From Micromonospora sp. CCTCC AA 2012012 (GTDB lineage Bacteria > Actinomycetota > Actinomycetes > Mycobacteriales > Micromonosporaceae): DNA of 64,000 nucleotides. The position numbers and the translations under genes were made by a program. Below are positions 23,074 to 53,093 of this stretch, one piece after another; positions within the stretch are counted from its first letter, which is position 1; each line of letters begins with the position of its first letter. The DNA is taken from positions 2,108,001 to 2,172,000 of the forward strand of contig NZ_CP159342.1 in the NCBI RefSeq assembly GCF_040499845.1, in the 5' to 3' direction. The notes under the pieces are model-generated. The model was not told the origin of the DNA, searched no databases, and worked only from the letters and a program-made list of their open reading frames with translations.

Positions 23074-24774
<1,701 letters not shown>

Positions 24775-24810
24775 GGGGTTCCTTCCCGTTGTACGTGCCT
24801 AACCGGTGGG

Positions 24811-24939
24811 CGGTACGGGAGCGCGTCGACGTGCATCTGGTCGGAGGCTCGTCCGGTGCGCTCCCGTACCGTCGGTACGAGGGAGGGGTTCTCGTACCGT
24901 CGGTACGAGGGGGGTGCTCGTACCGCCGTGCGTGTCCCC
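24811..24939. repeat. Array of CGTACC/GGTACG palindromes upstream of the chitinase
   Basis: Between the chitinase start (24774) and the LPMO stop (24995) there are two near-identical dyads. One is CGTACC-GTC-GGTACG at 24865-24879 and the other is CTCGTACC-GTC-GGTACGAG at 24891-24909. A degenerate third half (CTCGTACC) follows at about 24917-24924. In addition CGGTACGGGAGCGC (24811-24824) is the exact complement of GCGCTCCCGTACCG (24858-24871), giving a 14-bp inverted repeat that competes with the first dyad. The spacing between copies is about 24-28 bp. This could be a cooperative operator array, or a set of alternative mRNA hairpins in the leader. It could also act as LPMO terminators. The sequence differs from the known streptomycete chitinase repeats and from DasR sites. 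Confidence 0.7.
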
Positions 24940-24994
24940 GGTGGGTGGTCCGGGGTCGGACCGCCGGCGCTGGTAGGGCCGGCGGAGCGTGTTG

Positions 24995-25750
24995 TCAGAG
25001 GCGCTGCCAGAGCGCGGGGGTGCTCGCCGGCTCCCATCCCTCCAGCGCCGTGTGTGCCTGGCGGCATCGGTAGTTGGTGCCGCTGTAGCTGACGACGGCA
25101 CCGACGGCGTACGCGGTGCCGGCCTGCCACCCCGTGGTCCCCGGAGCCGTGGTGGGAGGCGTCGTCGTCGGGGGCGTGGTCGTCGGGGGCGTCGTGGTCG
25201 GAGGCGTGGTCGTCGGGAGCGTGGTCGGAGTCGTGCCGCCGCCGACCTGAAGGTCGACGCAGGCGTAGAAGGCCGCGGCGGTGTCGGCGATGTTCCAGCG
25301 CGCCAGCAGCTTCTGCCGTCCGCTGTAGCCGCTGAGGTCGACGGTGTGGGTCACGATGGCGTTGGGCTGGCGACCGGCGTCGTCGAAGACGGCGATGCGG
25401 CGATCACCGATGAAGTACTCCCAGGTGCTGGTCGAGTGTCGGGCGGTCAGCGCCCAGCTGAATGTGACGTTCCGGCCGACCGGGGTGGCACGCCACGCCT
25501 TGCTGTCGTCGTTCAGCTCCGGGAAGCGGCTGTTGCCGCCGTTGCACAGCATCGAACCCTTTGGGGCCTCGACGCTCTGGGGCTCGAACTTGACGTTGCC
25601 GCAGTCCGGGACGATGCCCTGGGCGCACTGCGCCTGCCGACTCGGCGGGTTGGACACGTATCCGTGCGCCTGCGCGGGGGACGCCACGATGGCCGACGTC
25701 AGGACGGTGCTGCCGACCGCCAGGGGCAACAGGAGTTTCTTACGCTTCAC
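24995..25750 (-). CDS. Secreted AA10 chitin LPMO with C-terminal CBM5/12
   Basis: This 251-residue secreted lytic polysaccharide monooxygenase has a signal peptide (1-28, ending AQA) whose cleavage exposes H29 of HGYVSNPPSR, the N-terminal histidine of the copper brace. H105 in ALTARHS is the second brace ligand, and the conserved NIADTAAAFYACVDL region carries the axial phenylalanine. After the AA10 domain (29-175) comes a linker made of TTTPP repeats, encoded by a short DNA tandem repeat at about 25150-25205. A CBM5/12 module (about 208-251, GWQAGTAYAVGAVVSYSG, ending LWQRL) follows. Substrate is most likely chitin, supported by the adjacent GH18. No motif for cellulose specificity was evident. 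The gene has its own upstream region with a palindrome at 25874. Confidence 0.93.
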   Translation of the reverse strand: MKRKKLLLPLAVGSTVLTSAIVASPAQAHGYVSNPPSRQAQCAQGIVPDCGNVKFEPQSVEAPKGSMLCNGGNSRFPELNDDSKAWRATPVGRNVTFSWALTARHSTSTWEYFIGDRRIAVFDDAGRQPNAIVTHTVDLSGYSGRQKLLARWNIADTAAAFYACVDLQVGGGTTPTTLPTTTPPTTTPPTTTPPTTTPPTTAPGTTGWQAGTAYAVGAVVSYSGTNYRCRQAHTALEGWEPASTPALWQRL

Positions 25751-25865
25751 GGGTTCACCGCTTTCTGGTTGCGCGACCGCTATCCATTCCGTCGAGGAAA
25801 GGGAAGGCGGCGGTGGGGGTGTGCGACTTCGATACCGTAAAACCCGCGACCCGAGTAGGAAGCAA

Positions 25866-25887
25866 TATTTACAGTTCCTTGAGGAAC
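25866..25887 (-). promoter_or_regulatory. Candidate promoter/operator of the LPMO gene
   Basis: An AT-rich patch in an otherwise GC-rich gap contains the dyad GTTCCT-TG-AGGAAC (25874-25887). On the minus strand it is immediately followed by TAAATA (complement of 25866-25871), a good -10 candidate. Transcription would start near 25859, giving a leader of about 110 bases before the LPMO ATG at 25750. Confidence 0.4.
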
Positions 25888-25932
25888 CGATGAGGTGGAT
25901 TCAACAAAGTGTCATCGGGCACCGCTGACAAG

Positions 25933-25980
25933 GCGGCGGCTCGCCCGGGACGCCCGATGGGCTCCCGAGCGGGCCGCCGC
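25933..25980. terminator. Collagenase transcription terminator
   Basis: Two 18-bp arms pair with two mismatches around a 12-base loop: GCGGCGGCTCGCCCGGGA, and its near-complement ending GGGCCGCCGC. It lies 21 bp beyond the collagenase stop on the minus strand. Confidence 0.7.
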
Positions 25981-26000
25981 TCGCGCCGGGTGTGGACGGG

Positions 26001-28667
26001 TCAGCGGGTGACCGACACGGTCACGCCCGCACAACCCGTCCTGCCGGACAGGCTGATGTAGTGGTACCCGGCTCTGGGCGCGGTGACCGTGAACGTCTCC
26101 GCGTTGCCCTTCGCCGTCGAACGTTGCAGATAGGAGTCTCGGGACGCCCATCCGTCGGGGTCGTAGTACAGGTCGCAGTCACCAGTTCCGCCGGCCGACG
26201 AGATGCGCAGCCGGTCGGTGCCGGCGGGTACGAGCATCCACAGGTAGTCGTAGCTGCCGGAGGCTGCGGCACGACCGGTCCGTTGGCAGTCCAGGCCCAG
26301 GCTGTTGCGGTCAGCGCCGGCACACTCCCGTACCACCGAGCCGACGGTGACCGACCGGCCGACCGTCGCCGTCGCACCCTGGTCGTCGGTGACGGTCAGC
26401 CGCACCGCGTAGGTCCCACCGATCCGGTACGTCTTACGTGGGTTACCGGTCCCCGAGGTGCTGCCGTCGCCGAAGTCCCACGTCCTGGCGACGATCCGGC
26501 CGTCGACGTCCGAGGAGGTGTCGGTGAACGAGACGGTTCGCCCGCTGCCACTGTGCGTGAAGCTCGCCGTCGGGGCCCGGTTGCTCCCCGGATCGGGTGA
26601 GAGGGTGGTGTCAGGCGAGGCGGTCGGCGACACGGAGGGCGACCGGTCCGGTGTCGAAGGGCTGGGCGTGGGCGCGGACGGCGATGGTGCGGGAGTTGAC
26701 GCGCTCGGCGTGGGCGAGGCGTCGTCCGACGGCACCGTCATCCGCTGGCATCCTCCGCTCGCGCAGGCCGCCAGCCAGGTGAACCAGGAACTGTCGTAGC
26801 GGGTGCCGATGGCGCTGGTGAGCAGTTGGCGGGCAGCGGCGTAGTCGCCGGCGCGGTAGGACCGGAGCACGGCGTCGACGTCGCTCCGATGGTTTTCGAT
26901 CATGTGCCTGACCGCGAGGTAGCCCCACGAGTAGACGCGGCTGCTGTCCTGCCCGTACACGGTGTTGAAGAGGCTGCTCAACGAATAGGTCCGCCGGCCG
27001 GCCTCGGTCACCGCGCTGCTGTAGACCTGCCCGCGGTAGTGGTACGAGACGTACTCGGCGAATCCCTCGATCCACCACACGGTCGGCGTCTGCGTCGCGG
27101 CGCCGAAGTCGCCCCGCATGTCGAAGCGACCGTCCAGGTAGTGGGTGTACTCGTGGTTGAGGTTCCAGATCTCGAAGCTGGGTCGGGACCACTCCGCCTC
27201 GTACGCGATGAACCTGGCCTGGTTGCCGGCCGCGGCCGGGTTTCCTTCGAGGTACATGCCGCCGTTGTTCGTGTCGATACCGAAGGTCGCTCCGGCGTAG
27301 GCCCGGTAGTCGCTGCTGGAGTTGTACACGACGACTTCCAGCGCGGTGTTGTTGTCCGCGGCCACCGGACCCGGGTCCCGGACCAGCCGGTGGAAGAAGT
27401 CGTCCTGAGCCAGCAGGCTGCGGCAGCTCGCCTCGGCCTCGGCGGTGGTCATCTGCTGGGCGCGGATCCGTAGCGTGGGGCTGCAGGTGTGCTGGAAGAC
27501 GAGCACGTCGTTGAGCTGTCCGGCCAGGCCGCAGGTTCGGTAGGCCGCACAGGACGAGCGGTCGTAGGTGTCCGCCATCTCCGCCGTCCCGACCCACAGC
27601 GCGGCTGTCGGACCGGTGCGTTCGCTGTGGGCGAGCACGTCGCGCACCTGCTTACGGGTGCGGTCGCGCAGGGTGTCGTACTGCAGGAACCGTCCGAGTT
27701 CCCGGCCGGCGTTGACGACCAGGAAGTCCTGCTCGGTGCCGAGCAGTTCCTCGTGCTTCCTGGCGAAGGTGTGCAGGGTGTCCAGCAGGAGCGGGTCGGC
27801 GCGGACCGCTGCGACGAAGTCGGGGTCCCGGTGGCCGTCGAACAGCAGCGTGAACGCCTGGTTCACCGCGTTGACCATCCACCACGAGCGGTTGTAGTTC
27901 GGCCCGTACGACGAGAGGGTGTGGCTCACGACGGGAAGGTAGAAGCGGTTGAGACCGAGTTCGTCGGCGAGGACCAGCGCTTCGGTCAGGATCTCCCCGT
28001 TCGCGTCGGTCACCCCGGCGTTCGCCGGGTTCGCGAAGAGCGTGTCCAGGGCGGGTCGCGCCGCTGCCGCGAGTCGCTGGTCCGGCTGGCCCTTCTCATC
28101 ACCGCGGGAGTGCCGGAACGCGTGCCCGGTACTGAGGTAGAGGGCGAGCTGGGCGGCGCGGGACGGATTCCCGCGGTGACCGGCCTCCTGAGCGAGGGCC
28201 TGGACGATGGTGGTCAGCTTGCCGTCCTCGAAGGCACGATTGCCCTCGGCCCGTCCCAGTCTTGACAACCCGGCGATGCACTCGGTGGTCGACCCCTTCA
28301 CCCGGTCGACCAGGTCGGCACCGCGATGGTCGGTGTAATCGCGGGTGGCGCAGCGTCTGGTGGGTGGGGCCGCACCGACGACCGGCCGGCGCTTCAGGGC
28401 CATTGATGCGTCGTCGTAGCTGCGGTACGCCTGCTCGTGCGACGCCGGGAGCGGAGCCCGCTCGTCCAGCGGTTTGGGGTCGTGGGACACGTGATTGAGC
28501 GTGTCGGTCGACGACAGCGAGACGATCGGTGAGGACGAGGTGGAGCTGGCGACGGGGTGCCGCTGGTGCGTGGTGGTCCAGACCACGGCGCCCGCTGACA
28601 GGAGGACGGTCGTGATGCTGAGCGCCAGCAGCACCCGTGGGCGCTGACGTCGGGGATCTCTTCTCAT
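26001..28667 (-). CDS. Secreted M9-family collagenase with PKD and PPC domains
   Basis: This 888-residue exported metalloprotease has an N-terminal membrane/signal helix (VLLALSITTVLLSAGAVVW). A large activator/peptidase region (about 90-660) follows, then a Pro/Ser/Thr linker, a PKD domain (about 720-795, with GRIVARTWDFGDGSTS) and a C-terminal prepeptidase domain (about 800-888). The zinc motif H505-E-Y-T-H509 lies in NLNHEYTHYLDGRFDM, with the third-ligand region WWIEGFAEYVSY following 25-29 residues later. This order is that of clostridial and actinobacterial collagenases (ColA/ColG type), which digest native collagen using the PKD and PPC domains for substrate binding. It is monocistronic. 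Compared with clostridial enzymes, it has one PKD and one PPC domain, a common form in actinomycetes. Confidence 0.92.
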   Translation of the reverse strand: MRRDPRRQRPRVLLALSITTVLLSAGAVVWTTTHQRHPVASSTSSSPIVSLSSTDTLNHVSHDPKPLDERAPLPASHEQAYRSYDDASMALKRRPVVGAAPPTRRCATRDYTDHRGADLVDRVKGSTTECIAGLSRLGRAEGNRAFEDGKLTTIVQALAQEAGHRGNPSRAAQLALYLSTGHAFRHSRGDEKGQPDQRLAAAARPALDTLFANPANAGVTDANGEILTEALVLADELGLNRFYLPVVSHTLSSYGPNYNRSWWMVNAVNQAFTLLFDGHRDPDFVAAVRADPLLLDTLHTFARKHEELLGTEQDFLVVNAGRELGRFLQYDTLRDRTRKQVRDVLAHSERTGPTAALWVGTAEMADTYDRSSCAAYRTCGLAGQLNDVLVFQHTCSPTLRIRAQQMTTAEAEASCRSLLAQDDFFHRLVRDPGPVAADNNTALEVVVYNSSSDYRAYAGATFGIDTNNGGMYLEGNPAAAGNQARFIAYEAEWSRPSFEIWNLNHEYTHYLDGRFDMRGDFGAATQTPTVWWIEGFAEYVSYHYRGQVYSSAVTEAGRRTYSLSSLFNTVYGQDSSRVYSWGYLAVRHMIENHRSDVDAVLRSYRAGDYAAARQLLTSAIGTRYDSSWFTWLAACASGGCQRMTVPSDDASPTPSASTPAPSPSAPTPSPSTPDRSPSVSPTASPDTTLSPDPGSNRAPTASFTHSGSGRTVSFTDTSSDVDGRIVARTWDFGDGSTSGTGNPRKTYRIGGTYAVRLTVTDDQGATATVGRSVTVGSVVRECAGADRNSLGLDCQRTGRAAASGSYDYLWMLVPAGTDRLRISSAGGTGDCDLYYDPDGWASRDSYLQRSTAKGNAETFTVTAPRAGYHYISLSGRTGCAGVTVSVTR

Positions 28668-51908: not shown

Positions 51909-52446
51909 CGTCTTCCCTCCTGAAGCGACGCAGATGCTACGGACGGCACCGGCCGTCCGCCCCGGACCGACGGAATGCTCACATCGGGCCGGGAATCGGT
52001 GACGCAACGGGCGTCCGCGCGTCAGGAGGTGGTCAGGACAGCGGTGGCCGGGACGCGCGCAGCGCGGCGGGTCGCAGGGTCGACATGCTGAATGCGGGCT
52101 GGTCAGCAGCCTGGGCGGCCTCACCAAGGCCTGCCGGCTGCTGCTCACCACCCCGTTCGAAACCTGGCACGGGCTACTCACGACGCCGACGTTCCACGTC
52201 CCGATCACCACCGGCGTGCTGGTCGGCGCTGGTCTGCGCGACGCGGAGCAGAGTCCTCCGCAGTAGCCCGGCACTCCACGCTCGCATCGTCCGCCCGGCG
52301 CGGACAGCCGATGCAAGGCCAACTGGCGACGACCTGACCGTTCGCCCAGGCCGGTGAGGTGCTGGCCCGGCGCTGGCGGGTCGCGGTCGGCCCGTACCGG
52401 CGGTTCATGCTGGCCTTGGACCGCGTCGCCGAGGCCGACAAGCCGA
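51909..52446. other. Gap with degenerate coding-like fragments
   Basis: No intact gene is visible. Around 52095-52266 the plus-strand frame SSLGGLTKACRLLLTTPFET, then PITTGVLVGAGLRDAEQSPPQ, has strong GC3 and ends at a stop but has no proper beginning. Around 52343-52445 another frame (QAGEVLARRWRVAVGPYRRF, then ALDRVAEADKPSG) also looks coding. They look like pieces of a decayed gene. No family was recognised. Confidence 0.4.
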
Positions 52447-52478
52447 GTGGGGCCGGCACTGTGCGGTGCCGGCCCCAC
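52447..52478. terminator. Terminator of the lectin-like gene
   Basis: Perfect 13-bp arms (GTGGGGCCGGCAC and its complement) with a six-base loop lie 34 bp beyond the stop of the minus-strand gene at 52512. Confidence 0.85.
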
Positions 52479-52511
52479 CCGCTGCGCCAGCCCGTCACCG
52501 GGCGGGCCAGC

Positions 52512-53093
52512 CTACTGCCAGTAGTCCCGCCAGCAGCAGTTCGGCTTGTCCTGCCACTTGTAGTGCAGGGCGTTGTCGACGCCGGTCACCTTCACGCGGA
52601 TGGTGCCGCCGTTGTTGGAGAAGTAGTCCGCGTACACCCCCGTGTACGCCTTCAGCGCGCCGCCCAGCGATGCCCAACCACTCCAGTCGCCACCCGGCGT
52701 GAGCTGCCATTTGTGGTTCAGGTCGCCACCGGCCGCCCGGCCGAAGATCTCCAGGCGACCGTCCTGGTTGTGGCTGACCCCGACACCACTGGAGACCCTC
52801 CCGCCGAGGCTCCAGTCCCCACTGGTGTACCCCGAGCCGGGGCTCGACTCCCAACGGTGCCAGACCGCCCCGTCACCGCCGACCCAGAACTGCTCCTTCC
52901 GCCCGTCCTTGTTGGTCTCCGTCACCGGCGCTCCTCCCCAGTCACCCGCGTAGGCGGGTTGCGGCACCACGATCAGCCCCGCCACCAGCACCGCGGCCGC
53001 CATCAGAGCCGCCCGCACCACATTCCGCCAGTTGGCGACCCTCCCCCGCCGTCCCAGGCCGGACCCGGCCCGGTCCGCTCGCATCATCTGCAT
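52512..53093 (-). CDS. Secreted PLL-type lectin-like protein
   Basis: This 193-residue protein has a signal peptide (about 24-51, with AALMAAAVLVAGLIVVPQP, ending AYA) and a mature domain built from repeated short strands: ETNKDGRKEQFWVGGDGAVWHRWESS, GVSHNQDGRLEIFGRAAGGD, LNHKWQLTPGGDWSGWASLG. This pattern (NxDGRLExF, W and H/K repeats, aromatic WSGW) is that of PLL-like or fucose-binding beta-propeller lectins and of actinomycete LGFP/PLL sensor domains. The C-terminus (DKPNCCWRDYWQ) has an adjacent Cys pair. A sugar-binding or surface-recognition role is likely. The start at 53093 follows a GGGGAC site; two more ATGs lie within 10 bases. Confidence 0.75.
   Translation of the reverse strand: MQMMRADRAGSGLGRRGRVANWRNVVRAALMAAAVLVAGLIVVPQPAYAGDWGGAPVTETNKDGRKEQFWVGGDGAVWHRWESSPGSGYTSGDWSLGGRVSSGVGVSHNQDGRLEIFGRAAGGDLNHKWQLTPGGDWSGWASLGGALKAYTGVYADYFSNNGGTIRVKVTGVDNALHYKWQDKPNCCWRDYWQ

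Follow-up and report, generated by a model that had tools for sequence, protein, structure and literature searches.

In a Micromonospora genome, the 220-bp gap between the gene for a lytic polysaccharide monooxygenase (LPMO) and the chitinase gene that follows it on the same strand is predicted to carry, in its RNA, a tandem array of three hairpins, designated P1, P2 and P3. The interpretation that we favor, at about even confidence, is that this intercistronic array would act as an mRNA-decay barrier, and perhaps as a partial terminator, on an LPMO-chitinase transcript, and in this model the element probably sets the amount of chitinase that is made. The stretch had been described, from its letters, as mutually exclusive hairpins or a cooperative operator array ahead of the chitinase and perhaps a new control element for chitin use. 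Instead, it appears to be an RNA feature of local scope and not a new DNA-level switch for the use of chitin.

Results

Genomic Setting and Repeats

The window is the whole 64,000-nt stretch that was analyzed (G000:C1:2108001-2172000) of the source genome, G000, which is a single contig of 6.73 Mb. The element (24811-24939) lies within the LPMO-chitinase gap, where both genes are on the minus strand with the LPMO upstream (Table 1), and a collagenase gene is found farther upstream on the same strand. Pfam recognizes the domains LPMO_10 (1.8e-22) and CBM_5_12 (5.7e-18) in the LPMO. Since the co-directional LPMO gene ends at 24995, just upstream, the element lies in an intergenic gap and is not a free-standing leader.

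A repeat search of the sequence recovered all of the repeats listed in the preliminary description, each in its place. On the coding strand the arms follow one another in the order CGGUACGAG, CUCGUACCG, CGGUACGAG, CUCGUACCG, CGGUACGGGAGCGC and GCGCUCCCGUACCG, and when neighboring arms are paired in that order, the minus-strand RNA is predicted to form the three tandem hairpins, with a single A between each. The two 28-bp units of G000 (24862-24917), each of which corresponds to one hairpin junction, are 86% identical.

Table 1. Coordinates in the window of the genes, repeats, predicted hairpins and candidate expression signals.
Feature	Position	Strand	Basis
Candidate -10 of a shared promoter, TACGGT, kept in G123	25834..25839	-	inference
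AA10 LPMO gene, with CBM5/12, 251 aa	24995..25750	-	ORF, Pfam
Predicted hairpin T1, GC-rich, 8 bp, just past the LPMO stop codon, no U-tract	24961..24985	-	fold; kept in G123
Third half-site CTCGTACCG	24917-24925		sequence
Predicted hairpin P1, CGGUACGAG - 7-nt C-rich loop - CUCGUACCG, 9 bp	24901..24925	-	fold
Dyad CTCGTACC-GTC-GGTACGAG of the preliminary description, the P1/P2 junction	24891..24909	.	repeats and fold
Predicted hairpin P2, CGGUACGAG - 9-nt C-rich loop - CUCGUACCG, 9 bp	24873..24899	-	repeat family, fold, G123 alignments
Dyad CCCGTACC-GTC-GGTACGAG of the preliminary description, the P2/P3 junction	24863..24881	.	repeats and fold
Dyad CGTACC-GTC-GGTACG	24865-24879		sequence
Predicted hairpin P3, 14-bp perfect stem CGGUACGGGAGCGC/GCGCUCCCGUACCG with apical stem-loop	24811..24871	-	repeats, fold; 15-bp stem in G123
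Perfect 14-bp inverted repeat	24811-24824 / 24858-24871		sequence
Likely chitinase Shine-Dalgarno sequence, GGAAGGA, outside P1-P3	24780..24786	-	sequence (inference)
CBM2 and GH18 chitinase gene, 566 aa	23074..24774	-	ORF, Pfam

Stability of the Predicted Fold

For the minus-strand RNA of 24811-24925, the predicted folding energy is -67.8 kcal/mol, compared with -36.6 ± 3.2 kcal/mol for 200 dinucleotide shuffles (z = -9.6), none of which was as stable. The gap taken as a whole is likewise exceptional (z = -5.9), as are the similar stretch of G123, the one further genome in which the full gap was found (z = -4.4), and the element of G123, which consists of a short hairpin and P3 (z = -8.5). 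Against a background of 464 kb, or about 7% of the genome (the window and 20 stretches of 20 kb, both strands, in overlapping 115-nt windows), an equal or better fold is seen in 62 of the 16,095 GC-matched windows, three of the 62 being the element's own. Without GC matching, 1,494 of 36,952 windows have such a fold, and hence stability alone is unusual and not unique. The same background contains five tandem pairs of perfect hairpins (stem of at least 9 bp, loop of at most 35, gap of at most 5 nt); each of the other four overlaps an ORF that passed the coding filter, and only that of P1-P3 does not. Inverted repeats would fold on either strand, and the plus strand of G123 also matches the covariance model of the element (E 5.5e-4). 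The strongest fold in the window at the 115-nt length is elsewhere, at 52436-52550 on the minus strand (-87.4 kcal/mol, 74% GC).

Alternative Pairing

The earlier claim of mutually exclusive hairpins was evaluated over 130 nt, where the P1+P2+P3 register alone yields -57.1 kcal/mol versus -23.1 for the two dyads alone, and the minimum free energy (MFE) is -68.6 kcal/mol versus -49.8 for a fold constrained to form the dyads but otherwise free. When MFE folds of a growing RNA were calculated at every 6 nt of length, P1 or P1+P2 came out best at 44 and at 56-68 nt, with dyad A preferred at 50 nt. Between 74 and 128 nt the best fold is an isomer that encloses P2 by pairing the 5′ arm of dyad A to the 3′ arm of dyad B, and it gives way to P1-P3 once the last arm is complete. 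A pairing switch in passing, while the RNA grows, is possible in this model. The second isomer cannot form in G123, however, because it requires two short hairpin units and G123 has one. What stood of the claim is that hairpins are predicted and that an alternative pairing exists on paper, but the alternative is much weaker and is not conserved in G123, and conserved mutually exclusive structures were not found in the two genomes compared, G000 and G123.

A search of Rfam with 24600-25300 gave no family at the gathering score, and the four matches at E ≤5 were all to microRNA models below that score, on which a known RNA family or riboswitch was rejected. One of the models weakly matched, mir-126, covers 24853-24919, with E 0.007 on one strand and 0.045 on the other (below the gathering score), and most probably resembles the hairpin arms by chance.

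Expression Signals

No U-tract follows the hairpins, and no terminator-like site was found in 24600-26100. Thus, of the features of a canonical rho-independent terminator, GC-rich hairpins are present and the U-tract is absent. P3 ends 36 nt before the chitinase ATG and, since those 36 nt show no promoter-like sequence, the chitinase would be silent if termination were complete. As the likely Shine-Dalgarno sequence is outside P1-P3, the hairpins need not mask translation of the chitinase. The coding strand of the gap has neither TTGAC nor TANNNT in G000 or G123, although for TANNNT this is not significant as about 0.7 would be expected (estimate) in a 220-bp GC-rich gap. A promoter scan found none in the gap and none ahead of the LPMO either; the scan has little power here. 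The TACGGT listed in Table 1 is the only coding-strand TANNNT within 250 bp upstream of the LPMO.

Conservation of the Gap

Among 160 Micromonospora genomes (G000 included) and 354 genomes of the family, the full gap was found in a single further genome, G123, with 79% identity over the BLAST alignment. Matches at E ≤1e-3 occur in 20 of the 160 genus genomes and 35 of the 354 family genomes, with G000 counted in both, where the best five (genus) and best two (family) candidates per genome were taken and weak relatives may be missed. Those other than in G000 and G123 are partial, about 22-75 nt in length, and were judged to be compositional. In a search of the genus with a covariance model of the element, whose stricter filters may miss weak relatives, G000 and G123 were the only genomes with a match. 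Likewise, the search of Micromonospora gave an LPMO of more than 66% identity only in G123 (92%, at the same place). In both genomes the LPMO and chitinase genes are co-directional and beside the collagenase, the pieces of which in G123 are 84-85% identical, and such an adjacent co-directional pair was present only in these two among the loci fetched. At locus L039, a sequence on the opposite strand matches the CBM of the LPMO over 41 residues.

G123 retains P3 and one short hairpin, one short-hairpin unit fewer than G000, and both kinds of hairpin reappear in the predicted fold of its RNA. The two genomes differ in the gap mainly by an indel of 29 nt, roughly the length of a hairpin unit and one further base, which does not disrupt the remaining hairpins. 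Which unit is regarded as extra is arbitrary since alignments match the short hairpin of G123 to either P1 or P2. The only dyad of G123 has a 2-nt spacer compared with 3 nt in G000. The copy number of the 28-bp unit itself (24862-24917) is two in G000 and one in G123.

Identity in the gap is 172/191 aligned columns (90%), compared with 321/417 (77%) at fourfold sites (Fisher p = 9e-5), which comprise 110/145 in the LPMO gene and 211/272 in the first 500 codons of the chitinase gene, and compared with 195/245 (80%) in the region upstream of the LPMO (p = 0.003). Because the gap exceeds both, it seems from this two-genome comparison to be under constraint. All 22 of the core stem pairs (short hairpin and P3) with letters in both genomes stay paired, one A-U having become G-U, and the apical part of P3, GGACGAGC..C.GACCAG.UGCACGU, is kept. 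The earlier proposal to look for compensatory changes by alignment produced one two-sided change, U-A to C-G in the apical stem, but this is not significant for two sequences, being equaled by 265 of 500 shuffles. All six of the changed pairs can form in G123 and two of them in G000, where four pairs in the apical or extended stem of G123 do not form, and the extended and apical pairs of P3 had been picked with G123 in view. Substitutions are not clearly rarer in paired columns (7/67) than in unpaired ones (3/20). Covariation has no power because only two genomes carry the element.

Operator Motifs

CTCGTACCGNCGGTACGAG occurs at 0-1 mismatch only at this site in the genome, and at up to three mismatches in 15 places versus 14 for the control. 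The looser CGTACC-N0-6-GGTACG is found in five places in its own genome versus two for the control, and two of the five are the dyads described here. In the 160 genomes, CGTACCGNCGGTACG has 19 occurrences, in 16 genomes, versus 35 for the reversed control; G000 has three versus none, and the single match in G123 is outside the gap. The dyad is absent from the 400 nt upstream in all 23 chitinase orthologue loci of the Micromonosporaceae that were checked, out of 80 retained. The search of this genome and of relatives in the Micromonosporaceae that had been suggested earlier therefore showed neither recurrence ahead of the chitinases checked nor enrichment in the genus, and since the dyad is not enriched, a regulon-wide operator is unsupported. 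With these results and the different spacing in G123, a DNA operator array was rejected as the main reading, the cooperative array is not supported, and the notion of a new chitin operator does not stand as it was put.

The statement that the element resembles neither the DasR nor the streptomycete chitinase repeats was borne out, as the best matches to the 12-mer cores have 5-6 mismatches. For the DasR element dre, A(G/C)TGGTCTAGACCA(G/C)T, the gap matches the core TGGTCTAGACCA with 6/12 mismatches at best. A CebR-like box was also rejected, with at best 4/14 mismatches to its pattern, as was a terminator common to LPMOs, the element being absent at 28 other LPMO loci (L110-L137, the best 28 of many). 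The LPMOs of these best 28 are about 56-66% identical to that of the window; one of the two heptamers lies within 230 nt of the stop in four of the 28 loci, and both together in none. Near the LPMO start, TTTACTGTTAA is present in 28 of these 28 other Micromonospora loci (the best of many) and its longer form, TTTACTGTTAACAAGGTTTAATTTA, in 13 of them, while the window LPMO has no TTTACTGTTAA. TTTACTGTTAACAA was not found in the literature searched, which took in part of the matching papers.

Chitinase Copies and Their Upstream Regions

G000 has a second chitinase copy (G000:426655-428307), as does G123, and the second copies are 83% identical to the window copy. The orthologues and the second copy of G000 have a different 5′ region, with a TTGAC-type -35 and a TAGCGT-like -10, a pattern present in 22 of 23 loci. 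Comparison of 5′ regions showed neither this promoter nor the palindrome described below at the window copy, which suggests, as judged from sequence, that the window chitinase is a duplicate under new control.

The palindrome, GGAAA(G/C)TTTCC, is located upstream of the CBM2-GH18 chitinase start in 22 of 23 Micromonosporaceae loci (L028-L049, L077; L148 is the chitinase locus of G000 itself in this comparison), and matches the CsnR-bound operator printed in PMC3048496. A search for TTAGGAAASTTTCCTAA, at up to two mismatches, finds one site each in G000 and G123, at the second chitinase copy and with two mismatches, where the reversed control has none in G000 and one in G123. PMC6097792 reports that, Streptosporangium roseum excepted, chitin genes showed no CsnR boxes; the Micromonosporaceae chitinase palindrome may, on its sequence, be a second exception.

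Discussion

The proposed role of the array can be outlined as follows. The LPMO and chitinase genes would probably be read as one transcript from a promoter ahead of the LPMO, the gap of which is predicted to contain the GC-rich hairpin at the LPMO stop and then P1, P2 and P3 in tandem. These would most likely block 3′-to-5′ exonucleases, and perhaps also stall or partly terminate RNA polymerase, giving an LPMO message that would exceed that of the chitinase in abundance or lifetime. The chitinase, which by comparison is a diverged extra copy without the orthologue promoter and operator, seems now to be under LPMO control. Stable predicted hairpins between co-directional genes with no U-tract after them are what a decay barrier calls for. 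This reading is preferred because of that missing U-tract and because the next gene, with its own likely Shine-Dalgarno sequence, starts 36 nt on, with no promoter seen in between, although the lack of -10-like hexamers in so short a GC-rich gap is weak evidence. In extracts from a survey of E. coli (PMC5927463), the 3′ end of a stabilized upstream gene was just downstream of a stable hairpin lacking a U-tract in 26 of 34 gene pairs, and consecutive protective hairpins were found in one operon.

P1-P3 could also simply end the LPMO message, as a U-less, V-shaped cluster terminator, in which case the chitinase would be expressed from an unrecognized promoter in the gap or by rare read-through. 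Clusters of hairpins without U-tracts have been argued to terminate transcription (PMC8355165, in extracts), and several close GC-rich hairpins past a stop codon is the arrangement proposed there; P1-P3, one A apart, have the spacing of such clusters (at least two hairpins less than 15 nt apart). Moreover, one U-less hairpin performed in vivo in mycobacteria about as well as two controls with U-tracts (PMC5335608, in extracts). On the other hand, work cited in the same extracts reports no in vitro termination by M. bovis RNA polymerase without a U-tract, which is missing here, and full termination 36 nt ahead of an ATG with no promoter-like sequence between would leave the chitinase silent. 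The terminator is a less likely reading, if one to be taken seriously. Distinctly less probable still is that chitinase expression is decided by an attenuator or riboregulator, with a ligand or a protein steering the alternative pairing of CGGUACG and CGUACCG. The arms are interchangeable, the growing RNA passes through dyad A and the other isomer, and the apical sequence of P3 is kept in both genomes, but the final fold is strongly one-sided, the isomer at 74-128 nt is impossible with the single unit of G123, no Rfam family reaches the gathering score and the likely Shine-Dalgarno sequence is in no arm. Nor is there a separate leader peptide ahead of the gap, because the gap follows a full gene.

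Control of the chitinase by a cooperative repressor or activator array on the DNA would make sense of the perfect palindromic half-sites, with dyad centers 28 bp apart, of the conservation of the whole gap and of the excess of the loose motif over its control in the source genome. It is nonetheless quite improbable given a near-exact motif confined in the genome to this site, a genus count below that of the control and absence from every orthologue locus checked. G123 has one dyad with a 2-nt spacer, a spacing of 28 bp does not amount to an integral number of helical turns and, although this is a weak test, no promoter was recognized nearby. A more elaborate scheme has the chitinase, after duplication, leaving a CsnR-box-type promoter for P1-P3 as a riboregulator that senses chitin status through a protein or metabolite at the conserved apical loop of P3, with hairpin copy number as a tuning knob; this is a speculation with very little probability. 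Finally, neutral replication slippage might have duplicated a hairpin-forming stretch that has no function, as the likeness of the 28-bp units and their different number in G000 and G123 would allow, but the gap is better conserved than fourfold sites and the core pairs are kept, making this highly improbable.

If the decay-barrier reading is right, an extra chitinase copy without the orthologue promoter and operator is read together with an LPMO, and an intercistronic hairpin array sets the ratio of two enzymes that work jointly on chitin. Such a dosage effect of the array is directly testable because the number of units differs between the two relatives. The element was not described in the literature searched (Micromonospora chitinase, operator, LPMO and operon, judged by title), and CGTACCGTCGGTACG was not found in that searched, covering part of the matching papers.

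REP or BIME elements are tandem palindromes between genes that can act on mRNA stability. The element resembles these in its intergenic tandem palindromes and differs in that no dispersed family was found in the genome; a REP-like family was rejected since motif searches of the genome and the covariance-model search of the genus gave no dispersed copies. Extracts on DasR elements and streptomycete chitinase direct repeats (PMC6097792) describe repeats that likewise lie upstream of chitinases, although the gap has no sequence match to them. The CsnR-box, the operator of a ROK repressor (PMC3048496 and PMC6097792, in extracts), is similarly a palindrome ahead of a chitin or chitosan enzyme gene, but it differs from the element in sequence, is a DNA operator over the transcription start and is absent from the window chitinase copy. 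The V-shaped or cluster terminators, as extracted from PMC8355165, share with P1-P3 adjacent hairpins past a stop codon and no U-tract, whereas here a second gene with a likely Shine-Dalgarno sequence follows at once, and P1-P3 are 70-184 nt past the stop with only T1 inside the 80 nt that hold nearly all of the sites in that study. The intercistronic decay barriers, such as malE-malF and those in the extracted survey (PMC5927463), have in common with the element stable hairpins lacking U-tracts between co-directional genes of one pathway. Compared with barriers of the malE-malF type, the hairpins here are in tandem with shared arm sequence, are actinobacterial and are known from predicted folds. 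The element is an RNA feature of a common kind, although its location is less common.
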